DNA of 64,000 nt from positions 1 to 64,000 of the forward strand of contig JANQSF010000125.1 of NCBI GenBank assembly GCA_028284155.1, written 5' to 3'. Source of the DNA: Phycisphaeraceae bacterium. Its GTDB lineage: Bacteria > Planctomycetota > Phycisphaerae > Phycisphaerales > Phycisphaeraceae. Shown here in pieces: positions 7,476 through 18,293 of this stretch. Each line of letters starts with the position of its first letter. Within the stretch, counting starts at the first letter, position 1. The translations under genes were made by a program, and so were the position numbers. Under the pieces are notes generated by a model. The model was not told the DNA's origin. It searched no databases and saw only the letters and a list, made by a program, of their open reading frames with translations.

Positions 7476-7901
7476 TCACTGCCGCGTGGCCGAGACGGTA
7501 TTGGCGGGGGACTCGCCCTCGCCGTCGATGACGTACACGCCCGTCAGTGTCTTGAGGTCTTTGGAAAAGGTGATCTGGTACGAGCCGTTGTTCATGTCGT
7601 CTTCGTACCGGGCTTTAAGGGTCAGCGGCTTATCCGTCTCGGCGGCCTTGAGCAACTTGCCTTTGTAGGGCTGCTGGGCAAATGCCTTGTCGTCGATGGT
7701 GTAAGTCGCGACCAGCGCGTCGCCGTCCTTGGCGAACTTGAAGATGATCGGGTCGCTGTTGCCACCGACCACGCCCTTGTAGGTCGCCCCCGCCACGCCG
7801 TCGTACCACTTGGCGTCGGCCGACGGCTTGCCGTCCATCGATTTGCAGCCAGCCAGGACCAGAACGAGGGATCCGAGAACGATCAGTGATTTGACATGCA
7901 T
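7476..7901 (-). CDS. Small lipoprotein of unknown function
   Basis: This 141-aa protein starts at the ATG at 7901, not at an upstream start, because MHVKSLIVLGSLVLVLAGC is a textbook lipoprotein signal peptide with lipobox LAGC and AGGGA lies just upstream. The mature part (KWYDGVAGATYKGVVGG, later YKGKLLKAAETDKPLTLKARYED) looks like one small beta-rich domain in which a measured compound or protein would be bound, but I recognise no family. It is the last chromosomal gene before the integrated element: its start codon lies 84 bp from the distal attachment repeat. It is probably membrane-anchored in the periplasm. Confidence 0.8.
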   Translation of the reverse strand: MHVKSLIVLGSLVLVLAGCKSMDGKPSADAKWYDGVAGATYKGVVGGNSDPIIFKFAKDGDALVATYTIDDKAFAQQPYKGKLLKAAETDKPLTLKARYEDDMNNGSYQITFSKDLKTLTGVYVIDGEGESPANTVSATRQ

Positions 7902-7984
7902 GGCGGTTTCCCTGAGCGAGAGGAGAGGTCGTATGAACCGTTCTTTAACACGACCCTGGCCACGCGTCAAGAGGCAAGGCCGTC

Positions 7985-8007
7985 AATACGCCCGACAGGA
8001 TTCGAAC
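7985..8007 (+). repeat. Distal attachment site (left end of element)
   Basis: Perfect 23-bp copy of the 3' end of the tRNA-Arg(CCT) gene (it contains TACGCCCGACAGGATTCG), in the same orientation as the copy at 18218-18240. No other part of a tRNA is present here, as expected for the end of an integrated element distal to the intact tRNA. Identity ends on both sides: the left copy is flanked by TC and AC, the right copy by GG and CT. Confidence 0.92.
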
Positions 8008-8190
8008 ACACCTAACGAGACAACTGGTAAAGATGCAATCACTGAATCAGGCGCAGCAAAAAGCGCAGCAGACACGGCCGATGGCTCGCTTGCTGAGGCG
8101 CTGGCGATGATCGCTCGACTGCCGTTGACGGACGCTGAAAAGGCCGAGGCTGTGCGGCGGCTGCTCGCATCGGGCGATTCAGCTCGTTAG
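8008..8190 (+). pseudogene. Detached 3' end of the integrase gene (predicted 60-aa tail)
   Basis: Continuing from the left attachment core in the frame used by the integrase at the right core gives 60 codons and a TAG at 8188-8190. The segment is alanine-rich and helical: GSLAEALAMIARLPLTDAEK followed by AEAVRRLLASGDSAR. It has no good start codon of its own; the open frame upstream (from 7810) runs antisense through the neighbouring lipoprotein gene. In an excised circle it would be fused in frame to integrase residue 430. I therefore read it as the displaced C-terminus of the integrase and not as a separate gene. Confidence 0.7.
8049..8071 (+). repeat. Candidate integrase arm site, left copy
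   Basis: Perfect 23-bp repeat of 18074-18096 in the same orientation. Each copy contains two GCGCAGCA octamers separated by AAAA (12-bp period). This copy lies 42 bp inside the left core. It is read in a different frame here (GAAKSAA) from the frame in the integrase (AQQKAQQ), so it is conserved as DNA and not as peptide. Confidence 0.6.
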
Positions 8191-8405
8191 CAATGGCACA
8201 CGAAACGAAGCGAGGGTCGCCCCCGACTTGTCAGCCTGGTCGACGCTTGGCCGACACCCCCAACGGCGGTTAGGGACGGGATCGTGGCGCTGGTTAAGGC
8301 GGCACGGTGACTGGCGGGACGCTGCCCCTACCCCGTTTAGGGGGATTCGTCGCCGCAGACAGGCTTGGTAGGCTCCGGCTAAACCCATCTAACAAGGAGC
8401 GAGCC

Positions 8406-9173
8406 ATGCGCCTATGTCGATTTGCCGTCATCGCAATCGCATTGACACTCTTCGTTGTGGTTCGCCCAGCATCGGCCGAGTCCATCGGAGTCGGACACGA
8501 TCTATTTATGACCGTTCCCGGTCAGACTAATCTCATAGTTGACGCCGGGCCTTTCGGAGGGACTGGATTCGTCGAGTTCCCTTTGGAGGGTATTCCGTTT
8601 GGTCCTGGAAACACGGATACCATTGTTGAGCGGCTGGATGGTCACGACTTCGCAACTCAAGGCAACACAGCGACAATTCAAATCGAATTGGTAGCACTTT
8701 CTCTTCAGAGCGTCGCCCCAGTCAATATCGGCGGGAATCTCTGGGACGTACACATCACGGGTTCCCCCTCAACAACGCCAGGTACACTCATCGTGAATAA
8801 GACGAGTTCGGGAGGCGGTGATTTTCAGGTGGATCTTTTGCCAATCGTCGTTGACATCACTTTTAACCAACTCAACAGCCCTACTGAGATCACACAGACC
8901 GATGAGTTCATCTTCGACGGCGCGGGAGTGTGGTCGTTCAATCCAGGGCCGGCCAATCAAAACAACGCTAACCATCCATCGGGTGGGCTTTACATCGGCG
9001 TCGACCCACTAACCGGCGAAAAGGCTGTCACCATACTGACCGGTGCGGGTGCGAGCGGGACTGCGACCCATGCATTTGTACCGTCGATGCCCACCCCCGC
9101 CGCAGCCGGACTCGGCCTGCCGTTGTTGGGCCTGCTTGGCGTGACGCGCCCACGGCGTCAACGGGCGGCGTGA
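8406..9173 (+). CDS. Secreted protein with PAAAGLGLPLLGLLG sorting tag
   Basis: This 255-aa protein starts at ATG 8406 behind AAGGAG. It has a clear signal peptide (MRLCRFAVIAIALTLFVVV then a cleavage-like ASAES). The middle is beta-rich and acidic with no domain I recognise (VGHDLFMTVPGQTNLIVDAGPF near its start). The C-terminus is PTPAAAGLGLPLLGLLGVTR followed by a basic end (PRRQRAA): a proline motif, a short hydrophobic helix and arginines, as in the PEP-CTERM/exosortase class. It is probably exported and processed at the membrane. Its last ~80 bases and the following terminator are almost identical to those of the gene at 10749. Confidence 0.85.
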   Translation: MRLCRFAVIAIALTLFVVVRPASAESIGVGHDLFMTVPGQTNLIVDAGPFGGTGFVEFPLEGIPFGPGNTDTIVERLDGHDFATQGNTATIQIELVALSLQSVAPVNIGGNLWDVHITGSPSTTPGTLIVNKTSSGGGDFQVDLLPIVVDITFNQLNSPTEITQTDEFIFDGAGVWSFNPGPANQNNANHPSGGLYIGVDPLTGEKAVTILTGAGASGTATHAFVPSMPTPAAAGLGLPLLGLLGVTRPRRQRAA

Positions 9174-9200
9174 CCGACACCACAACTTGGACACCGACAG

Positions 9201-9228
9201 CCCCGGCGAGAGCCGGGGTTGTTTGTTG
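9201..9228 (+). terminator. Rho-independent terminator after the 8406 gene
   Basis: Stem CCCCGGC, loop GAGA, stem GCCGGGG, then TTGTTTGTT. It begins 27 bases after the stop codon and is part of a repeated 3' module shared with 11478-11501. Confidence 0.85.
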
Positions 9229-9742
9229 CTGAGGCCTTTTCGAACAAGGTCGCACCCCATCGAACGCGACCACGGGGTGAGTAGATGAGGGTGGGATGGT
9301 GGCAATAGCGCGGTGGCTGGCGAATCAAACCCCAATACCTCATTCAGGGGGGGATCGACTCAAGACGTCAACACACACTTGTGATTCTGAGGCAAATCCA
9401 TTAATCGCCCGCAAGGCTCACTTCGACTCGGGTAACCAACTGTAAGCACAGGGGCTTATAAGGCTCTATGTGTGGCGCAGGCTCTGGCGCCAAGGACCGC
9501 CCAAACGCCTCGAACGACCTCGACCGTCCCACCTAATCGACGCTTAGCCGCCCCAAGTTCCCTCAGTCAAGGCAGGGACAGTGGCAACAGCTAGGGACGC
9601 CGCAGCCGCCACTTGACTCGTTCAGCGAAAAGACTGTACTGTAGGTGCACTTTGATCCAGGGGCTGGGGCAAATGCTACTTCCACTTCGCTAGCCATTTC
9701 TGTGATTTCACTCGAAGTTCCACTGAAAGGACTGGAGCGATC
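9229..9742. other. Intergenic stretch without a convincing gene
   Basis: About 510 bp between the terminator and the next secreted-protein gene. Short open frames here lack ribosome sites and recognisable sequence. It probably holds the promoter of the 9743 gene; no clear promoter boxes could be assigned. Confidence 0.5.
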
Positions 9743-10696
9743 ATGCCGCACAATCGACTGATCATTTGGGGTTGGATGAGTATTTGTTTCGTTGCCACTG
9801 CGTTCAATATGCCGATCAACGCCGCACCACTCCTGTTGCAGGACTGGTCGGTGAATCCTCATCCGGTCATTGGGCCGGGTACGAACTCTCCGGCCGCCGG
9901 AGTCACAGTCTTGAAGACCGGCGGCCTCTTTCAAGCTTGGCACGACAATGCTGGCGCCGGAATGAACAAGGTCATGCGCACCACTTCAACGGATGGTGTT
10001 ACCTGGAGCGAGTCCCAGGTCGTCTATACACCTATGAACCCAGAAGACTCAAATCCTGAAGTCGTTTTGAAGAACGGAACCTATCACCTTTGGGTTGGCG
10101 CTCGTGGCGGGACCACATCCCTGGCAACGGAGTATGCAACGTCCAGCGACGGAATAACCTGGACGAAACAAGGGCAGATCACAACTGACAATTTCTTCCA
10201 GTTCCGTTCTGTCCTTGCCACTTCGACCGGATTCGAAGCCTGGTATCGGCCTAGAGACTCAGTAGACGGCTATCACTATGCCACGTCGACTGACGGCTTG
10301 AATTGGCTTGACGAAGGTGTCGTCTTGCCGGTCGGCGTCGGCGGAGAGTTTGACGAGAACATCGCCGGACTCGACGTCCTGAAGATCGGCGGCTCTTATC
10401 ACATGTGGTATTCCGCCGGTGTTGGAGGCACGAACAAGCCGGCCTACGCCACATCATCCGATGGTGTGAATTGGACCAAGCACGGAATCCTCGATGGATT
10501 CGGTGCGGTTAGCGGAAACATCTCCTCCATTTCCGTTTTGCACGAGAACAACGAATTGCAGATGTGGTTTCACGAAGACAACACAGCAAGCGTGTTTCAT
10601 GCCACATCCCCCGTTGTTCCCTCCCCCGCCGCCGCAGGCCTCGGCCTGCCTTTGCTTGGCCTTCTCGGTTTGACACGTCCCCGTCGACTACGCTAG
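9743..10696 (+). CDS. Secreted beta-propeller-like protein with sorting tag
   Basis: The 317-aa product has an N-terminal signal peptide ending near NMPINAAP. The body consists of repeated blades with S-x-DG-x-x-W motifs: TSTDGVTWSE, SSDGITWTKQ, TSTDGLNWLD and SSDGVNWTKH. These resemble the Asp-box-like repeats of sialidases and the five-bladed propellers of GH32/GH43-type glycoside hydrolases, so carbohydrate binding or cleavage is plausible. I cannot identify a full catalytic set. The C-terminus is VPSPAAAGLGLPLLGLLGLT then RPRRLR, the same sorting tag as its neighbours. Translation starts at ATG 9743 behind GGAG. The next gene begins 52 bp downstream with no terminator between, so the two may be co-transcribed. 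Confidence 0.85.
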   Translation: MPHNRLIIWGWMSICFVATAFNMPINAAPLLLQDWSVNPHPVIGPGTNSPAAGVTVLKTGGLFQAWHDNAGAGMNKVMRTTSTDGVTWSESQVVYTPMNPEDSNPEVVLKNGTYHLWVGARGGTTSLATEYATSSDGITWTKQGQITTDNFFQFRSVLATSTGFEAWYRPRDSVDGYHYATSTDGLNWLDEGVVLPVGVGGEFDENIAGLDVLKIGGSYHMWYSAGVGGTNKPAYATSSDGVNWTKHGILDGFGAVSGNISSISVLHENNELQMWFHEDNTASVFHATSPVVPSPAAAGLGLPLLGLLGLTRPRRLR

Positions 10697-10748
10697 CACT
10701 CTTAAGAACGACATTCACATTCGAAAGCTTTGAGCAAAGGAGCGCACG

Positions 10749-11450
10749 ATGAACCGACAGAACGCCATAGCAATCGCAATCACGTTTTGCGCGTATGCAA
10801 GTTCAGTCGAGGCGGGCTCTGTTACGTTTCAGCAAGATGTTAGTGGCTACAGCGGCACGCAAGACACACTGCTGCGTGAAAACCTCGCAGACACTTCGCA
10901 CGGAAACAACGTAACGCTGAAAGTTGATGGGAATAGCTCTCCAACGGCTGCGGCTGACCAAAGTTTGATTCTGTTTGACTCGATTTTTGGCAACGGCCCC
11001 AATCAGATCCCCCTCGGCGCACCCATTACAAGTGCAACGTTGACACTGAAAGTGACCAATTCAGGAACGGGCGGAGAATTCCATCGCATGCTGATGCCCT
11101 GGGGCGAAGACGACACCTGGAACGACTGGACGAACGGCTTGGATCAGTTTGGAACGGAGCTGACTACATCACCCGACGTAATCGCTGGTCCCGCAAGCGG
11201 CACGTTTGTGATCGATGTGACTTCCAGCGTTCAGGCTTGGTCGTCAGGTTCGAGCAACTATGGATGGGCGATCCTTTCAAAGGACAACTCGACGGACGGC
11301 TGGATCTATCACTCTTCTGAAACTGCCGATCTGTCCGACCGTCCATTGCTCTCTGTCGTCTACACACCCACCCCCGCCGCGGCAGGCCTCGGCCTGCCGT
11401 TGTTGGGCCTGCTTGGCATCACACGCCCACGGCGTCAACGGGCGGCGTGA
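10749..11450 (+). CDS. DNRLRE-domain secreted protein with sorting tag
   Basis: This 233-aa protein follows AAAGGAG. After a short signal peptide (ending SSVEAGS) it contains QDTLLRENLADTSHGN, characteristic of the DNRLRE domain, a beta-sandwich of extracellular proteins. Further support: ITSATLTLKVTN, a conserved EDDTWNDWTNG region and FVIDVTSSVQAWSSG. DNRLRE domains usually accompany cell-surface or carbohydrate-related proteins; no catalytic role is assigned. The C-terminus PTPAAAGLGLPLLGLLGITR plus PRRQRAA matches the tag of the 8406 gene at DNA level, although the bodies of the two proteins are unrelated. It closes a likely two-gene unit with 9743 and is followed by a terminator. Confidence 0.87.
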   Translation: MNRQNAIAIAITFCAYASSVEAGSVTFQQDVSGYSGTQDTLLRENLADTSHGNNVTLKVDGNSSPTAAADQSLILFDSIFGNGPNQIPLGAPITSATLTLKVTNSGTGGEFHRMLMPWGEDDTWNDWTNGLDQFGTELTTSPDVIAGPASGTFVIDVTSSVQAWSSGSSNYGWAILSKDNSTDGWIYHSSETADLSDRPLLSVVYTPTPAAAGLGLPLLGLLGITRPRRQRAA

Positions 11451-11477
11451 CCGACACCACAATCTAGACACCGACAG

Positions 11478-11501
11478 CCCCGGCAAATGCCGGGGTTGTT
11501 T
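11478..11501 (+). terminator. Rho-independent terminator after the 10749 gene
   Basis: Stem CCCCGGC, loop AAAT, stem GCCGGGG, then TTGTTTT. Same design, same distance from the stop and nearly the same flanks as 9201-9228. Confidence 0.85.
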
Positions 11502-11718
11502 TGCATCTCGATGGATTTGCCGGGCGGAATTGGCCACCTTCACGGTGGTGGGGGTTGCGGGGCCACTCTGCCACCGCCAGGGCCCCGTGACCGGCCCCGA
11601 CCCGTAACGGCCGGCAAACCAGAGTGCTTCCCGTCTGCACCTGACACACGCCGATTGCACCAACGCCTCGATCCGTCGGTATACTGCGCCCATCACGTCG
11701 AACGGCCGGAGAGAAATC

Positions 11719-12555
11719 ATGTGCTTTAGAGTGACTGCAATCGCTGCCGCCCTTGCCTTCACCCTGGCGACCGATGCAGAGGCGGTACTGCTTCAGGAGG
11801 TCGTTCACCTATTTGACGACCCGTCAGGGAATCGAGTTCTCAACAACTCCGATCGTATTAGAGTGCCTCCAGACATGCTACGAGTCGTGCAAGCGAACGT
11901 TGCCGGATTGGGCTATACGGCCACCGGATCAATTGGCACTCTCGGAAACCTGGGCATCAGTTCGAGTCAGTTCACGGCGGGATCGTCGCAGAATGCAGTA
12001 AGAATCGAAGACACATTTGTGAACCTGCTGGGTGTACCCCGAACGGCAGTCGCAAACTTTATCATTAATGGTGGCATGGTCACCATGATCGGCCCAGGCA
12101 CAGCAGAGTTTTCCCTCGCAGTCGAAGCACGGATCTTTGAGAATTCGACCTTTGTTGATTCGGAAATATTCTTATCTCAGTTTGACCTCACCGCAGCTGG
12201 CTTCGGACCGGTTGCCTTCAGTCCGTCGGGTGACGACATCGGTGCTTTCCTGGCCGATCCCAATCGAGTGGAGATCCCACTTTCGTTTCATTCGTTGGAT
12301 CTCGGCGTCATACCCGCCAACGGCAGCGTTGATTTAAGCTACCAAGTAATCTTCAACACTGACTTTCCCAGCGGGTTAGAGGGCGTGTTCTTTGAGTTCA
12401 GTGACCCGTTGAACGTTGACGGCCGTGGTGAGTTCCCCGAGGTGGTGTTTTCCGGCGGTCCTGCGCCGGGCAACAACGCTGTCCCCGAGCCCGCCACCGC
12501 CACGCTCGCATTGCTGGGCATCGCTGGGCTGATGCGACGACGCCGTGCGGCGTGA
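11719..12555 (+). CDS. PEP-CTERM secreted protein, unknown function
   Basis: This 278-aa protein starts at ATG 11719 (upstream GGAGAG). It has a signal peptide ending near TDAEAV and a canonical PEP-CTERM tail: VPEPATATLALLGIAGLMRR then RRAA. The body (residues ~25-245) is beta-rich with no family I recognise. The tail differs from the PAAAGLG variant of its three neighbours, so the cluster combines two tag types, presumably recognised by the same or related sorting enzymes; no exosortase is encoded in the window. A weaker terminator of the same family follows. Confidence 0.85.
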   Translation: MCFRVTAIAAALAFTLATDAEAVLLQEVVHLFDDPSGNRVLNNSDRIRVPPDMLRVVQANVAGLGYTATGSIGTLGNLGISSSQFTAGSSQNAVRIEDTFVNLLGVPRTAVANFIINGGMVTMIGPGTAEFSLAVEARIFENSTFVDSEIFLSQFDLTAAGFGPVAFSPSGDDIGAFLADPNRVEIPLSFHSLDLGVIPANGSVDLSYQVIFNTDFPSGLEGVFFEFSDPLNVDGRGEFPEVVFSGGPAPGNNAVPEPATATLALLGIAGLMRRRRAA

Positions 12556-12583
12556 CTGACAGAACAACTTGAAACCTTCACAG

Positions 12584-12608
12584 CCCCGGCAATCGTTGGG
12601 GTTGTTTG
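12584..12608 (+). terminator. Terminator after the PEP-CTERM gene
   Basis: CCCCGGC, loop, GTTGGGG, then TTGTTTGTT. A degenerate version of the two terminators upstream (two G-U pairs). Confidence 0.6.
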
Positions 12609-12773
12609 TTGCGCGGCATATCCTCTACAGGGGCCTGACCCTTGGGCCAACCTCTGACAGTGCTGATCCGTACTTGTGACAAGACGAACGTCAGCGAAAC
12701 CCAGCAGCAGTCTGAATGTCAGAGTCAAGAAACAACCGTGCCAAGTCACTCTAACAAGCCAGAGGATCGACCG

Positions 12774-13130
12774 ATGGCCGAGCCGTCAGCAAACGGGGAT
12801 AACGGGCGTGACGCACGTGGACGATTCAAGGCCGGCAACGCCGGCGGGCCGGGGAATCCGCATAGTGGGCAGGTGTCGAAACTGCGGGCCGCGATGCTTG
12901 AAGCCGTGACGCCGGAGCGACTGGCCAAAGTGGTCGATGCCCTGGTCCGGCAAGCCGAAGCGGGCAACGTCGCGGCGATCCGTGAACTGCTCGACCGGAC
13001 GATCGGCAAACCGATCCCGATGGAACCTGAGAGGGCACTTGACAACGAGGTACGAGTTTTTCACATCGAGGTTCCACTTCCAGCACGGGTGGACAACGAT
13101 GCACAATCCGCTCGGTCGCACTCCATTTGA
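12774..13130 (+). CDS. DUF5681-like protein
   Basis: A 118-aa protein; ATG 12774 is preferred because GAGG lies upstream and the recognisable domain starts here. Residues ~10-30 read GRDARGRFKAGNAGGPGNPH, typical of the DUF5681 N-terminus (GRFxxGNxGGPGNP). It is followed by a helical region (MLEAVTPERLAKVVDALVRQ) and IRELLDRTIGKP. Such proteins are common on phages and mobile elements of environmental bacteria and are usually placed near DNA-packaging or replication genes, but their function is unknown. It marks the switch from the secreted-protein cargo to the element's own core genes. Confidence 0.75.
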   Translation: MAEPSANGDNGRDARGRFKAGNAGGPGNPHSGQVSKLRAAMLEAVTPERLAKVVDALVRQAEAGNVAAIRELLDRTIGKPIPMEPERALDNEVRVFHIEVPLPARVDNDAQSARSHSI

Positions 13131-13167
13131 TGCTCGCAGGGAATTGGGCGCACTGTGAGTGAAGTCG

Positions 13168-13392
13168 TCACTCTGCACTGTCGTCCGCGGCACCCTCCTC
13201 AAGCATCCACTGTGGCACTTGGCCGTCGGACTCAAAGTGAACTCCACTTATCCAGTGCTCATTGCCGAATTGGTCGGTGAAAGCAAGATCCGCCGTGAAT
13301 GACTCACCCACACTTTTGTTCGCTGGAATAATCCAAAAGTGTGCCGACAACTCCGACGTACTTCCAGGCGCAATCGGATTACGACCCCACAA
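13168..13392 (-). CDS. Unknown soluble domain, possibly the C-terminal part of a split gene
   Basis: A 74-aa frame opening with TTG at 13392. It reads as a beta-rich domain (SAHFWIIPANKSVGESFTAD, later ISGVHFESDGQVP) with an acidic end. It overlaps the end of the membrane-protein frame upstream by 14 bases and stays open a little upstream of the TTG, so a one-base frameshift near the G-rich stretch around 13415-13425 would fuse the two into one membrane-anchored protein. Translational coupling of two genes is the alternative. Convergent to the 12774 gene. Confidence 0.5.
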   Translation of the reverse strand: MWGRNPIAPGSTSELSAHFWIIPANKSVGESFTADLAFTDQFGNEHWISGVHFESDGQVPQWMLEEGAADDSAE

Positions 13393-13630
13393 TGGTCCCG
13401 ACGCATGGGACTTCCCCTTCTATGCCTTGGTCGAGAGCGTCGCCTAGATCACCCCGTTTGTCCTTTGATGGCTTGGGACCGACACCGGGAGGCCAAAGGG
13501 TAATCGAACGCCCTTGCACAAAAGCGACCACGATCAACACTGCAAACACAACTATGACAACCAATAACGCGACGCTGAGTAGCACAGCAATGGTTGAGTC
13601 GTCTCTAAGCCATTGAATTAGGTCAGACAT
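13379..13630 (-). CDS. Small single-pass membrane protein, possibly frameshifted
   Basis: 83 aa. The N-terminus MSDLIQWLRDDSTIAVLLSV runs into one strong transmembrane helix (residues ~15-38, rich in V, A, L and I), followed by a polar proline/lysine segment. The stop at 13379 lies inside the next frame (13168-13392), which continues with a compact soluble domain. No family recognised. These two frames are the only minus-strand genes in the element, so they may be a separately acquired unit. Confidence 0.55.
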   Translation of the reverse strand: MSDLIQWLRDDSTIAVLLSVALLVVIVVFAVLIVVAFVQGRSITLWPPGVGPKPSKDKRGDLGDALDQGIEGEVPCVGTIVGS

Positions 13631-13775
13631 CTCGCTTTACTCTGATCTCCATTGTCAAGTATATTATCGAGTTGGGTAGCCGACCGATCATCGGCCGAGC
13701 GATCTGGGTGAGTAACGGCACTTTGCACCTTCCGCCGTACTCGCCCGGATCGGCCCGCATCACGGAAGGTGCGCC

Positions 13776-14654
13776 ATGTCCGATCCATTGGCGATTCAAG
13801 CATCACAGATTCGTTGCGCAGACGCATTCGATCGAATTGCTCAAGAGCTGCTTCGTGTGCGCCGTGACACTTCAGAAACACAGGCGCTCCGCTTGAACAT
13901 GCTCCGATCTGTAGAACAGGCTGGGGCATTGCTTTGTGAGGCAAAGGAACGCGGCTGCTTTCCTGTTGAGTGGAAGGACAAGAGAGGCGCTCCTGTTTGG
14001 AGACATGCGACATCCGCGTTTGAAGATACTGACATGCCACTAGACCAGATGCGTCGCTCGATATGGCACTTCTGTCTTAGTAGCTGGCTCACCTTGGATT
14101 ACCCCGGCCGCATCAAGCCAGATTGCGGAAAGTATGATTGGGCTTCAAAGGAAGTGCGCGACGGGCAGATAGTCAGTCGTCACGCAAGCTACACAGAATC
14201 CGATCACAGAAACGAATTGAAGGCGCGAATTGAAGATCATGCGCAGGCTTGCGTCTTACTGGCAGAGCTTCTAAGGGAACAGGCAACTGCCGGCGGTCTA
14301 GCTGAAGGGAATGGGGTCTTGACTGTGTTGGACGACTCAATGCCCGCAAAGTTGCGGGGCGAACGACCTTCAAGGGTGAAGGCAAGGGCGGTTTACGACT
14401 GGGCAATCGGGGCGATCCCGAATGCTGAGCATATGACCATCAACGAAATCTATGACCACGCAAGACGGGAACTTGGGCGGCTACGTGATCGGGCGAGTGG
14501 CGAGAAAGCGGAGCAGTATGAAGAACTGCTTGGCGGACTTCCACGAAATGGGGAAACGTTCGGCAGATACCTGCGTGACACCGGGCTGAAACGCTACAAC
14601 ACGGGTACCGCCAGCACCACGGGGGGAAGTGTCCGGTCGGCCGACTCGACCTGA
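13776..14654 (+). CDS. Unknown element-core protein, 292 aa
   Basis: Starts at ATG 13776 behind GGAAGG. The N-terminal ~90 residues are helical (FDRIAQELLRVRRDTSETQA, then RLNMLRSVEQAGALLCEAKE), a style seen in phage or plasmid DNA-binding proteins. Around residues 75-140 is a Trp/Asp-rich segment. The C-terminal ~90 residues (KARAVYDWAIGAIPNAEHMT to GETFGRYLRDTGLKRYNTGT) look like a winged-helix-type domain. I do not recognise the family. Its position ahead of the AlpA-HTH and PrimPol genes suggests a role in replication or control of the element; that is inference from context. Confidence 0.7.
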   Translation: MSDPLAIQASQIRCADAFDRIAQELLRVRRDTSETQALRLNMLRSVEQAGALLCEAKERGCFPVEWKDKRGAPVWRHATSAFEDTDMPLDQMRRSIWHFCLSSWLTLDYPGRIKPDCGKYDWASKEVRDGQIVSRHASYTESDHRNELKARIEDHAQACVLLAELLREQATAGGLAEGNGVLTVLDDSMPAKLRGERPSRVKARAVYDWAIGAIPNAEHMTINEIYDHARRELGRLRDRASGEKAEQYEELLGGLPRNGETFGRYLRDTGLKRYNTGTASTTGGSVRSADST

Positions 14655-14850
14655 ATCGGACCAAACCGGACCGCGGCACTTCTTTTCTGCTGGGGGTGAC
14701 GGGGCCTCACGCTCCGCCAGTGGTGATTGTGCGCAATTCGAGCAGTCTATCGCTGTGGTCCGGTTGTCCGGTCTGTGGTCTATGTCTGGCGTGCATTGAC
14801 GGCGGCAAGTGACCGCTGACACGCTCGACGCATGACCGGAGGCCGTCACG

Positions 14851-15096
14851 ATGACGACCACACCCCCCGCCGCCGGCGAGCGTATCGCCGGGCCTGATCG
14901 AGCACCGGCCGAACTGCTCGACGTTTCCGACGTGGCGAAGCTGCTCAACTGCTCGCCACGGCATGTCTACCGCCTGGCCGACGCCGGCCGAATGCCACGA
15001 CCTGTGAGGCTCGGCGCGCTCGTGCGCTGGCGAGCCGATGAACTGCGCCGATGGATCGCCGATGGCTGCCCGACGGGGGAAGGGGGTGCGCCATGA
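14851..15096 (+). CDS. AlpA/excisionase-type helix-turn-helix protein
   Basis: 81 aa. Residues ~23-72 (LLDVSDVAKLLNCSPRHVYR to ALVRWRADELRRWIADG) form the MerR-like winged HTH of the HTH_17/AlpA/Xis group: the LDVSDVAKLL start, the recognition helix CSPRHVYRLADAG, and the RW wing that contacts DNA. Such proteins act as recombination directionality factors or as transcription regulators of integrative elements. It overlaps the next gene by four bases (ATGA at 15093-15096), so the two are translationally coupled. In this setting it is the best candidate for the factor that directs excision by the 16951 integrase. Confidence 0.85.
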   Translation: MTTTPPAAGERIAGPDRAPAELLDVSDVAKLLNCSPRHVYRLADAGRMPRPVRLGALVRWRADELRRWIADGCPTGEGGAP

Positions 15097-15500
15097 GCCG
15101 CCGGCGAGAGAAACCTACCGAAGGTGAGCGGCGCAAGACCGATGCGCACACGCTGCTCGAAGCAAGGCGGCAAGTCTTTGTGAACCGTGGCCGGCGGGCG
15201 TTGTTGAAGTCGTTGCTGCTGATCGACACCGCCACCGCAGACGACGTTCGGCTCGCTGTCGATCTACCGCCCGACATTGACCCAAAGTGTTTCGGGGCTG
15301 TACCTGGACCGCTGGCGAGGGCGCGCATCATCCGGCGCGTTGGCTACGAAAGGACGGGAAGAGCGACCGGGCACGCTCGGATTCTCACCGTTTGGGAACT
15401 CGCCGACCGAACGGCCGCGATCCACTGGCTCATCGCGCATCCCGACGTGCCCGACCCCGCCGACGATGCGGGGCCGGGCGAAACGCTGTTCGCTGACTGA
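15093..15500 (+). CDS. Unknown basic protein coupled to the HTH gene
   Basis: 135 aa; I chose the ATG at 15093, which overlaps the stop of the HTH gene (ATGA). The N-terminus is very basic (MSRRREKPTEGERRKTDAHT), followed by a helical region and a domain with IIRRVGYERTGRATGHARIL, reminiscent of a small winged-helix DNA-binding fold. The end is acidic. No family assigned. Position between the HTH gene and PrimPol suggests an accessory role in replication of the element. Confidence 0.7.
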   Translation: MSRRREKPTEGERRKTDAHTLLEARRQVFVNRGRRALLKSLLLIDTATADDVRLAVDLPPDIDPKCFGAVPGPLARARIIRRVGYERTGRATGHARILTVWELADRTAAIHWLIAHPDVPDPADDAGPGETLFAD

Positions 15501-15557
15501 CTCTGGACCGCCGGGGCGGCGTACCAGCGCCGCCCCGGCTACTCGATAGGCACTGAC

Positions 15558-16730
15558 ATGTTACGCGATGCACTTGCTTACATCCGGCGAGGCTGGCCGG
15601 TGTTCCCGTGTCGGCCGCGCTCCAAGAAACCCGCGACCCCACAAGGCTTCCATGACGCCACAACCGACGCTGAACGTGTCCAAGAATGGTGGGCCCGTCG
15701 AGCCGTCTACAACGTCGCAATCGCAACAGGGGCCACGTCCGGGCTGGTGGTGATCGACGTGGACCCGCGCCATGGCGGCGACGTGACGCTTGAAGCCCTG
15801 ACGGCGGAACACGGCCCGCTGCCGAAGACGCCAACGGCGCAGACGGGCGGCGGCGGGTTGCACTACCTGTTTCAGCATCCCGGTGGCTACGTCAAGGGCC
15901 GGGCGGGTGCGCTGGGGCCCGGCCTCGACGTGAAGGCTGACGGCGGCTACATCGTCGCACCGCGCAGCAAACATCCGGGGGGCGGCGACTACCGCTGGAT
16001 TGTTTCGCCCGACGACGCACCGCTGGCGGCGCTGCCGACGTGGATGGCGTCGATGCTGACCATTCGGGACGCCGATTCGGAATCAAGCAATGACGACCGT
16101 GATGGCTGTGTTTCTTGTGTCTCTGAGTCTCTGAGTCTCTGCGCCTCTGTGTCTCTGTGTCAGTGGATTGAAAAGGCCATGGCGGCAACGCTGCCGACCG
16201 GACCTGGGCAACGGAATCGCCGCATCTTCACCTTTGCACAATGGCTCAAGACACACCCGGAGTCGAAGGACGCAACGATGGGAACGCTTCGCCCGCACGT
16301 CATGGCTTGGCACAAGGCGGCGGCGGCGAACATCAGCGGCGAACACGGTCCCGATGAAACATGGGCGGACTTCATTCACGCATGGGGAGCGGTCAAGTAT
16401 CCGCTCGGCGCTGGACCGCTGGCTGAGGCGTTGGCGGCGGCGGACGGGACGGACATGCCGGCGTGCGCCGAGCAGTACGCCAACGAAACGACGCGCCGGC
16501 TCATTCGATTGTGCCGGGAGCTACAACGCCGAGCGGGCGACAAACCGTTCTATCTGGCGTGCCGACCGCTCGGGGACGTGCTCGGTATTGACCACGACCG
16601 GGCGAACAAGCTGCTCGGGATGCTCTGCACGGATGGCATTCTGGAGCGCGTCTACAAGGGGCACTCCGGGCGGGCGAGTGAGTTTCGATACATCGGGCTT
16701 GACAACGCTACCGATACAGGTGATAATTAA
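15558..16730 (+). CDS. PrimPol-type primase (bifunctional DNA primase/polymerase)
   Basis: 390 aa. Residues 1-170 match the archaeo-eukaryotic-primase PrimPol domain of mobile elements: RRGWPVFPCRPRSKKPATPQ, the metal-binding VIDVDP with D67 and D69, TGGGGLHYLF with H102, and GLDVKADGGYIVAPRS with D124. The ~20-residue linker near 190 is a low-complexity insertion encoded by a TCTCTG-type repeat. The C-terminal half is helical and ends in a winged-helix-like segment (PLGDVLGIDHDRANKLLGML). Enzymes of this group make primers and extend DNA for replication of plasmids, phages and satellites. No helicase domain is present, so the element would borrow one from the host or a helper. The next gene begins 4 bp later. 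Confidence 0.9.
   Translation: MLRDALAYIRRGWPVFPCRPRSKKPATPQGFHDATTDAERVQEWWARRAVYNVAIATGATSGLVVIDVDPRHGGDVTLEALTAEHGPLPKTPTAQTGGGGLHYLFQHPGGYVKGRAGALGPGLDVKADGGYIVAPRSKHPGGGDYRWIVSPDDAPLAALPTWMASMLTIRDADSESSNDDRDGCVSCVSESLSLCASVSLCQWIEKAMAATLPTGPGQRNRRIFTFAQWLKTHPESKDATMGTLRPHVMAWHKAAAANISGEHGPDETWADFIHAWGAVKYPLGAGPLAEALAAADGTDMPACAEQYANETTRRLIRLCRELQRRAGDKPFYLACRPLGDVLGIDHDRANKLLGMLCTDGILERVYKGHSGRASEFRYIGLDNATDTGDN
16115..16162 (+). repeat. TCTCTG/TCTGTG tandem repeat inside the PrimPol gene
   Basis: About seven degenerate units of GTCTCTGA / CTCTGTGT type. It is in frame and encodes a Ser/Cys/Leu/Val run (VSESLSLCASVSLC) between the primase domain and the C-terminal domain. Confidence 0.85.
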
Positions 16731-16734
16731 CACC

Positions 16735-16947
16735 ATGTCAAAGAGCAAGGCAACCATGACTGAACTGCTGCGGCAAGCGCTGGGCGAAGCCGATTCAATC
16801 CGTGGCGTCGCCAAGGCGACGGGGCTGGATCATTCGTCGCTTGTCCGATTCGTGAACGGCGAGCAGTCGCTTCGTCTGGACCTGGCCGACAAACTGGCCG
16901 CACACTTTGACATTGAATGCCGGCGCACCCGCCGGCGGAAAGGCTGA
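16735..16947 (+). CDS. Small XRE/Cro-type HTH protein
   Basis: 70 aa from ATG 16735; longer versions of this frame run through the PrimPol gene and are rejected. MTELLRQALGEADSIRGVAK, then ATGLDHSSLVRFVNGEQSLR and LDLADKLAAHFDIE, is a compact Cro/C1-type HTH with the recognition helix DHSSLVRFVNG. It sits 4 bp after PrimPol and 3 bp before the integrase, so the three genes form one tight unit. A repressor or regulator of element replication and integration is the natural reading. Confidence 0.85.
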   Translation: MSKSKATMTELLRQALGEADSIRGVAKATGLDHSSLVRFVNGEQSLRLDLADKLAAHFDIECRRTRRRKG

Positions 16948-16950
16948 CCG

Positions 16951-18246
16951 ATGGCTTCATTGGTTACGTATGACGACGGATTGCGACGGATCGACTTCAC
17001 GCTTACGCCGAACGGCCGGCGTCAAACTGTCAGGCTCGGCCGTGTCAGTGCGAAACACGCCAAGACCGTACTGGCGAAGGTCGAAGCGCTGATTGCCGAC
17101 AAACTGACACAACGCCCGCACGACACCGAGCTAAGCCGCTGGCTGGCTTCACTGGACGAAAAGATGCTGGCACGTCTGCGGGCCGTGGGCTTAGCCGATG
17201 GCGTTGGCGTGACACAAACGACGCTCGGCGAGTTTCTCGACCGGGCGTTGGCGACGCTGGCTGTGAAGCCGGGCACGCTCTCGTTTTACGAACAAGTGAA
17301 GCGCAACCTGATCGACTACTTCACCGCATCCCGGCTGTTGCGCGACATCACGCCGGAAGACGCTGACACCTGGCGGACGTGGCTGGTGGACAATCAAGGG
17401 CTTTCGACCGCGACCGTCGGCCGGCGGGTGATCGGGGCGCGCACGCTCTGGCGGCGGGCTGTGCGATGGAAACTGATCGGCGACAATCCGTTCCAAGACG
17501 TGCGGGGCGGCTCACAAGCCAACGAATCCCGCAAGCAATTCGTCCCGACGGCAACGATTGAAGCGATCATTGCCGAAGCGCCCGACGCCGAATGGCGTCT
17601 GCTGATCGGTCTGAGCCGTTACGGCGGGCTCCGCTGTCCATCCGAGCACTTGGCGCTGACATGGCGCGACGTGGACTGGGAACGGGGCACGCTGCGGGTA
17701 CGCTCGTCGAAGACGGCACACCATGAGGGGCACGCTGAGCGAGTCGTCCCGCTCTTTCCCGAATTGCGATCGCTGCTGTTGAGCGCCTACGAAGCCGCGC
17801 CCGACGGGGCCGAGCATGTCATCACCCGCTATCGCGATACGTCGGCCAACCTTCGGACGCAATTCAACCGGATCATCCGACGTGCGGGCTTCACGCCGTG
17901 GCCGCGCCTATTCCACAACCTTCGGGCAAGCCGTGAAACCGAGCTACTGCGCCAATACGACCTGGCGACCGTCTGCCGATGGATCGGCAATTCCCCGGCC
18001 GTTGCGGCGAGGCACTATGCCACGAGTGTTGACCTTGACGCTGACTTCCGACGGGCGGCTGGGCTCGACACCGAGGCGCAGCAAAAAGCGCAGCAGTCAC
18101 CGTCCGTCAGGCGTGAACGGGGAGTGTCAACGCGCACCACGCCGCATACCCGAAACCCCCGTGGCGGTAGCGCAGGCAACGATTGTCACGAATCGACAGT
18201 CGCAGGAAAAGGTGGGGAATACGCCCGACAGGATTCGAACCTGTGA
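16951..18246 (+). CDS. int: Tyrosine recombinase (integrase) that overlaps the tRNA
   Basis: 431 aa in the present configuration. The N-terminal part (residues ~1-190) holds arm- and core-binding domains. The catalytic domain has R228 (YGGLRCPSE), H322 and R325 (LFHNLRAS), N in place of the usual third histidine (WIGNS) and the nucleophile Y356 (ARHYA). After ~residue 375 comes an unstructured tail with AQQKAQQ. The last nine codons (YARQDSNL and stop) lie inside the attachment core and the antisense of the tRNA-Arg gene. The frame is open through the core up to the tRNA sequence beyond it, so the C-terminus depends on what DNA follows the core: here two codons of tRNA DNA, in the excised circle a 60-aa tail. 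It should catalyse integration and excision at the 23-bp core. Catalytic residues are complete, so the protein is probably active. Confidence 0.93.
   Translation: MASLVTYDDGLRRIDFTLTPNGRRQTVRLGRVSAKHAKTVLAKVEALIADKLTQRPHDTELSRWLASLDEKMLARLRAVGLADGVGVTQTTLGEFLDRALATLAVKPGTLSFYEQVKRNLIDYFTASRLLRDITPEDADTWRTWLVDNQGLSTATVGRRVIGARTLWRRAVRWKLIGDNPFQDVRGGSQANESRKQFVPTATIEAIIAEAPDAEWRLLIGLSRYGGLRCPSEHLALTWRDVDWERGTLRVRSSKTAHHEGHAERVVPLFPELRSLLLSAYEAAPDGAEHVITRYRDTSANLRTQFNRIIRRAGFTPWPRLFHNLRASRETELLRQYDLATVCRWIGNSPAVAARHYATSVDLDADFRRAAGLDTEAQQKAQQSPSVRRERGVSTRTTPHTRNPRGGSAGNDCHESTVAGKGGEYARQDSNL
18074..18096 (+). repeat. Candidate integrase arm site, right copy
   Basis: Second perfect 23-bp copy of 8049-8071 (paired GCGCAGCA octamers with an AAAA spacer), 121 bp inside the right core and within the integrase coding sequence. 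Confidence 0.6.
18218..18240 (+). repeat. tRNA-proximal attachment site (right end of element)
   Basis: Perfect 23-bp repeat of 7985-8007; 18220-18240 is the 3' end of the tRNA-Arg gene including the T-arm. Integration restored a complete tRNA. Confidence 0.92.
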
Positions 18247-18293
18247 CCTGCGCATTAGGAATGCGCTGCTCTATCCGACTGAGCTACGGGCGC
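18220..18293 (-). tRNA. tRNA-Arg (anticodon CCT)
   Basis: Reading the minus strand from 18293: acceptor GCGCCCG paired with CGGGCGT (first pair G-U), D-arm GCTC/GAGC, anticodon stem GCGCA/TGCGC around the loop TTCCTAA (anticodon CCT, reads AGG), T-arm ACAGG-TTCGAAT-CCTGT and discriminator A. CCA is not encoded. The gene is intact after integration and lies in the same direction as the M48 gene upstream. Confidence 0.95.

Follow-up and report, generated by a model that had tools for sequence, protein, structure and literature searches.

Integration into a tRNA gene appears to exchange the C-terminal end of the very integrase encoded by the integrating element. The element in question is 10.23 kb long and lies in a 64,000-nt stretch of DNA from a Phycisphaeraceae bacterium of the Planctomycetota (assembly GCA_028284155.1, contig JANQSF010000125.1, positions 1 to 64,000 of the forward strand; hereafter the window), where it is integrated at tRNA-Arg(CCT). 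From its architecture, the attachment site of the free element (attP) very probably lies inside the integrase gene int, such that integration moves the C-terminal tail of the integrase away and excision restores the long form. An initial annotation of the window had described a satellite or integrative plasmid with a PrimPol-XRE-integrase core; that overall interpretation is supported in part, and the attachment site inside the integrase gene had escaped it.

The element is bounded by perfect 23-bp direct repeats (AATACGCCCGACAGGATTCGAAC), whose right copy covers the 3′ end of tRNA-Arg(CCT), found intact by ARAGORN. The repeats and the intact tRNA had both been noted before and are confirmed here. 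The tRNA is thus rebuilt at one end while a direct repeat of its 3′ part stands at the other, the arrangement of a tRNA-integrating element. An own-genome search with the right-hand attachment site (attR) showed no further copy of the 23-mer.

The integrase open reading frame (ORF) traverses the right repeat, and its stop follows after one more codon, within the antisense tRNA. The left repeat, at the left-hand attachment site (attL), is read in the same frame as int, in an ORF that is open to 8190 and ends in YARQDSNTPNETTGKDAITESGAAKSAADTADGSLAEALAMIARLPLTDAEKAEAVRRLLASGDSAR before its stop. Fusing the two frames at the core, as excision to a circle would, gives an int of 490 codons, compared with 431 when integrated. 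The protein has the R...K...HxxR...(H/W)...Y residues of tyrosine recombinases (PF00589, phrog_1), in columns that are invariant or nearly so across relatives. Across the family, tail exchange leaves the N-terminal and catalytic domains on the main fragment, and about 60-80 C-terminal residues move. The tail itself matches no Pfam family. In the window it is directly followed by a second tail module (8191-8310) that belongs to the other common tail type and has a counterpart in 0 of 31 other elements; this may be either the relic of a double tail or an amber read-through product.

In 28 of 32 elements, the core stands between two near-identical repeats of about 20 bp, one some 110-175 bp upstream of it and the other 31-58 bp downstream. 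Their median score was 21, compared with 9 in a control stretch of int, and none of the 32 controls scored at least 14. The repeat sequence varies between elements and matches within each, as would be expected of integrase arm sites, and we regard these repeats as putative arm sites. Because they flank the core as arm sites would, the whole attP would fall within int. In about half of the elements the two copies stand in different reading frames, which argues that selection acts on the DNA.

To ask how general this arrangement is, we searched 201 genomes of the order, of which 98 hold a relative at E 1e-20, and screened 219 loci: 141 genomic ones, including the window (60 stretches of the order, most with ~17 kb of upstream sequence, and 80 from GTDB genome contigs), and 78 viral ones from IMG/VR, several of them fragments. 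The int ORF overlaps a tRNA or tmRNA gene in 126 of these loci (120 of the 141 genomic), always antisense, and in 117 of the 126 its stop codon lies within the RNA gene; genes for 13 amino-acid identities, and tmRNA, are used. With a profile hidden Markov model (HMM) of the tail built from 17 attL ends, we found 35 unique elements that have a repeat and a tail far upstream of int. The core is in the int frame in 33 of them, which comprise 32 integrated copies and L132, a free circle cut at its ends. The frame from core to tail is open in 32 of these 33. At one third per core, the probability of 32 of 33 in frame is ~1e-14; the frame relationship is therefore not due to chance. L054 and L080 were rejected as cases of an out-of-frame core, as their repeat matches were arm repeats; the true core of L054 is in frame, and L080 appears decayed and has no tRNA. 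Throughout the phylum, then, dozens of relatives of the element share this arrangement of tail and integrase, and the tail motif is itself conserved phylum-wide. Across a 116-integrase tree the trait forms clusters yet is widely spread (24 changes versus 38.5 when shuffled), with losses overcounted because some rows scored as short are cut by contig ends. No integrase relative was found among PLSDB plasmids or INPHARED phages at E 1e-15.

If attP lies inside int, unintegrated copies must have int and tail in one ORF. Consistent with this, the tail HMM placed the tail contiguous with int in seven viral contigs (L116, L118, L127, L128, L133, L134 and L138; the integrase is the same within each of the pairs L116/L118 and L127/L128), and further contiguous tails were recognised by eye in L125/L191 and L182. 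By comparison, 0 of 141 genomic copies have a contiguous tail, and no locus has both a contiguous tail and a tRNA (Fisher p 0.002). Two related viral contigs are probably circles of ~7.3 kb because they have terminal repeats: L132 (7437 bp, 123-bp repeat) and L133 (7355 bp, 69-bp repeat). Their int-tail ORF encodes 505 aa; in L133 it can be read directly, and in L132 it becomes continuous once the ends are joined. The free copy L116 and the integrated copy L117 (tRNA-Ser), whose integrases are 82% identical, align up to the core and then continue into tail and tRNA, respectively, which at the sequence level shows attP and attR versions that diverge at the core. Ten ORFs of L118 gave no PHROGs match, and their Pfam matches were limited to a MORN repeat and, below threshold, a Mu portal protein. 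The initial annotation had proposed a search for an empty site. Such a site was found for another family member, L060: its sister genome G155 joins both flanks with a single 18-bp core. For L053, a flank test among members of its genus did not yield a clean empty site.

Selection on the tail was compared between reading frames. In the tail type of the window, the ratio of nonsynonymous to synonymous polymorphism (pN/pS) is 0.40 in the coding frame versus 0.83 and 2.13 in the other frames; in the other tail type it is 0.68 versus 0.96 and 1.5. In 24 of 27 tails, the stretch from the core to the tail motif lacks an in-frame ATG, and the tail is therefore most simply made as part of the integrase. 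A model of the full-length integrase of L116 has a confident lambda-Int-like body that includes the N-terminal arm-binding domain, with lambda Int as the top match in the PDB. Its attP-encoded residues 377-460 are modelled as disordered, and a C-terminal helical hairpin lies beyond them. Some pairs resemble each other more in the tail than in the body: L070 and L079 have tails that are 71% identical and integrase bodies that are 54% identical, so that an exchange of tails between elements is possible.

Several observations weigh against an attP inside int that serves tail exchange. The window's own assembly, a draft of 161 contigs, contains no attP junction, only attL and attR. No empty site was found for the window's locus by synteny of the M48-type gene on its right flank, because no tRNA adjoins that gene in 19 relatives. 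L116 and L118, free-form contigs of 35.7 kb, lack terminal repeats that would indicate circularity. In L069/L210 a stop codon stands between core and tail. The tail evolves faster than the catalytic body of the integrase, with a higher pN/pS, and the model confidence of its hairpin in L116 is modest (predicted local distance difference test score, 58-67). Finally, the C-termini of some homologous integrases are short, which means that not every enzyme of this kind requires the tail.

We propose the following mechanism. The enzyme is very probably a tyrosine integrase of the lambda type, with P arm, core and P′ arm all contained in the 3′ part of int itself. While the element is a circle, the 490-codon gene would encode arm-binding, core-binding and catalytic domains, then the attP-encoded stretch and then the C-terminal module. 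Upon recombination with the tRNA-Arg(CCT) 3′ end, the last 60 codons would shift 10.2 kb away, to the far end of the element, and the integrated int would be left with its catalytic part whole, closed by one codon and a stop from the antisense strand of the tRNA; excision would rebuild the long form. The long form may be competent for integration, while the short form, aided by the AlpA-type protein, may carry out excision or permit excision only, or may be unable to reintegrate, and the exchange of forms would then make directionality depend on the physical state of the DNA. That the tail sets the direction of recombination in this way is the most economical reading, which we hold tentatively, as a nearly balanced possibility. 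A broader version, which we consider possible though short of an even prospect, is that bacteria have state-sensing integrases in which the long form only integrates, the short form only excises, DNA topology sets the direction, and tails can be swapped between co-resident elements because the tail sits at the opposite end of the integrated element.

One alternative takes the long integrase to be the unstable or inactive form. The tail would then be a degron or an inhibitor, and integration would free a stable short form, as it does for the repressor of mycobacteriophage BPs. In BPs and its relatives attP lies inside the repressor gene, and integration removes an ssrA-like degradation tag (PMC4557955). 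The geometry is the same, as in this integration-dependent immunity a C-terminus, 33 residues with the ssrA-like tag, is removed through an attP inside the gene (PMC4557955). In our elements, by contrast, the core lies in int, and the XRE regulator gene (16735-16947) is upstream and intact. What is removed is a conserved helical module. We found no ssrA-like tag at the tail ends: a helical hairpin makes up the conserved part, and the variable residues that follow do not end in LAA. In addition, a circle unable to keep its integrase would integrate poorly. We therefore consider a degron or inhibitor unlikely.

A suicidal integrase of the archaeal type is likewise improbable. Under that explanation integration inactivates the integrase, and excision requires a complete copy that comes in from elsewhere. 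As in the SSV1-type integrases, attP lies inside int (PMC8371274), and in the archaeal SSV1, pTN3 and pT26-2 types integration likewise splits the gene. According to a 2021 review, this class is found exclusively in archaea (PMC8371274). There, however, the split parts the N-terminal from the catalytic portion (PMC8371274), whereas here only a C-terminal module is exchanged, and all catalytic regions and the N-terminal arm-binding domain stay on the main fragment. Moreover, the ORF of the main fragment is kept open in most integrated copies, and an Xis-like gene is retained.

It is very unlikely that the frame overlap is incidental, with attP merely at the end of the int ORF and the tail a neutral read-through. 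Short-tailed homologues exist and tail divergence is high, which would favour it, but frame and openness are kept in 32 of 33 mapped elements, the motif is conserved across the phylum, and pN/pS is lowest in the coding frame. That the tail is a separate small gene beside attL, not translated with the integrase, is highly improbable: it does sit at the opposite end of the integrated element, and an in-frame ATG, GTG or TTG precedes the motif in 13 of 27 tails, but the 24 tails without an in-frame ATG and the single uninterrupted ORF of the free forms oppose it.

The integrase resembles the lambda type in its N-terminal arm-binding, core-binding and catalytic domains and in the repeats on both sides of the core. 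The attP of lambda is located outside int; unlike in lambda, P arm, core and P′ arm here all appear to be int coding sequence. Among open-licence PMC papers we found no report of an attP inside int in bacteria, and the only match was the archaeal review; preprints and subscription papers lay outside this scope, and the latter may describe cases in which attP slightly overlaps the int 3′ end. As judged from sequence, an attP in int with an exchanged C-terminal module would be a bacterial solution that differs from the archaeal one, as the enzyme survives integration and loses only a module. This suggests a built-in answer to how an element senses its integrated state. The overlap of int ORFs with antisense tRNAs also accounts for the odd tRNA-derived ends (...RQDSNL, ...GLEPVTSAM) on many planctomycete integrases, and because the tail marks attL, it can be used for mapping element ends.

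Features of the element and its target, in window coordinates.
Feature	Position	Strand	Basis
attL, left copy of the 23-bp att core	7985..8007	+	identical to 18218-18240
Integrase C-terminal tail, parted from int by integration; 60 codons then TAG, int frame	8008..8190	+	frame, sequence, homologous tails in L053, L054, L195, L196
Putative P′ arm-type Int site, 41 bp from core	8049..8075	+	26/27 bp identical to 18074-18100
Second tail module, same frame directly after TAG (RPRLVSLVDAWPTPPTAVRDGIVALVKAAR, then stop)	8191..8310	+	tail HMM E 1.4e-10
Cargo: probably exported protein, PEP-CTERM-like C-terminus	8406..9173	+	no Pfam match; C-terminal signal recurs in other cargo
Cargo: BNR-like protein, same C-terminal signal as 8406..9173	9743..10696	+	PF13088 1e-05, below cut-off
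Cargo: CBM96/DNRLRE-domain protein, same C-terminal signal as 8406..9173	10749..11450	+	PF24517 1e-09, NF033679 1.5e-17
Cargo: PEP-CTERM protein	11719..12555	+	PF07589 2e-05, above cut-off
DUF5681-like ORF	12642..13130	+	PF18932 0.026, sub-threshold; tblastn 62% identity over 80 aa to ORF in L196
292-aa protein	13776..14654	+	no family match
AlpA/excisionase-type helix-turn-helix (HTH), probable recombination directionality factor	14851..15096	+	PF12728 8e-12, PF05930 above cut-off, TIGR01764, phrog_66
135-aa protein	15093..15500	+	weak relative in L195
Prim-Pol replication protein	15558..16730	+	PF09250 4e-51
Cro/C1-type HTH (XRE) regulator	16735..16947	+	PF01381 4.5e-05
Tyrosine integrase, integrated form, 431 aa, ends in tRNA antisense (...GGEYARQDSNL, stop)	16951..18246	+	PF00589 5e-09, phrog_1 2e-31
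Putative P arm-type Int site within int, 144 bp before core	18074..18100	+	26/27 bp identical to 8049-8075
attR, right copy of att core, within both int and tRNA	18218..18240	+	repeat identity, tRNA position
tRNA-Arg(CCT), target gene, restored by element	18220..18293	-	ARAGORN

The identities previously assigned to the core, an AlpA-type HTH gene ahead of a PrimPol-XRE-integrase unit, are borne out by the Pfam, TIGR and PHROGs matches. No gene of the window element gave a terminase, capsid, relaxase or FtsK-type match above the Pfam or PHROGs threshold, in line with the earlier statement that virion and conjugation genes are absent; the one DUF5681 match is sub-threshold. Phage-inducible chromosomal islands (PICIs), P4-type satellites, and actinomycete integrative and conjugative elements (AICEs) are small tRNA-integrated elements with an Xis-Int-replication core, like the window element. 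Packaging or capsid-hijack genes of satellites are not found in it by Pfam or PHROGs, in contrast to L133 and L196, which have packaging genes, nor was an FtsK/TraB-type transfer gene of AICEs found. Of the earlier proposal, what is supported is a discrete element in a tRNA gene, with a PrimPol-Xis-Int core and cargo that can be replaced; satellite and integrative plasmid are both possible for the window element, which has no packaging gene.

A search for the same core with other cargo, also proposed in the initial annotation, was successful. The closest mapped relative, L053 (tRNA-Val; element at 7897-17768 in oriented coordinates), keeps AlpA, PrimPol and Int; its cargo includes a type III restriction-modification pair together with a Fic protein. 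At the tRNA-Val(GAC) site of L053, the genus-mates L381 (G031) and L382 (G109) have another, short-tailed integrase of the same family beside the tRNA. The more distant relative L196 has a small terminase, and the 7.3-kb L133, with its terminal repeats, has a small terminase, a prohead protease and a DnaB-type helicase beside its tailed integrase; it is a very small phage satellite, probably of a planctomycete host.

The cargo of the window element had been described as envelope proteins, which is plausible for its four probably exported proteins, of PEP-CTERM-type, BNR-like and CBM96 kinds. The G+C content of the cargo half (window 8000-14000) is 54-59%, versus 61-68% for most of the core half and the flanks, and this half was therefore probably acquired separately. 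The part of the cargo genes that contains the C-terminal sorting signal and terminator is duplicated (9090-9224 and 11367-11501, 135 nt, 91%; also 10619-10692), with related copies at four further sites of the host genome; this repeat may be a handle by which recombination exchanges cargo. The arms of a perfect 19-nt inverted repeat (11747-11765 / 14373-14391) are 2.6 kb apart.

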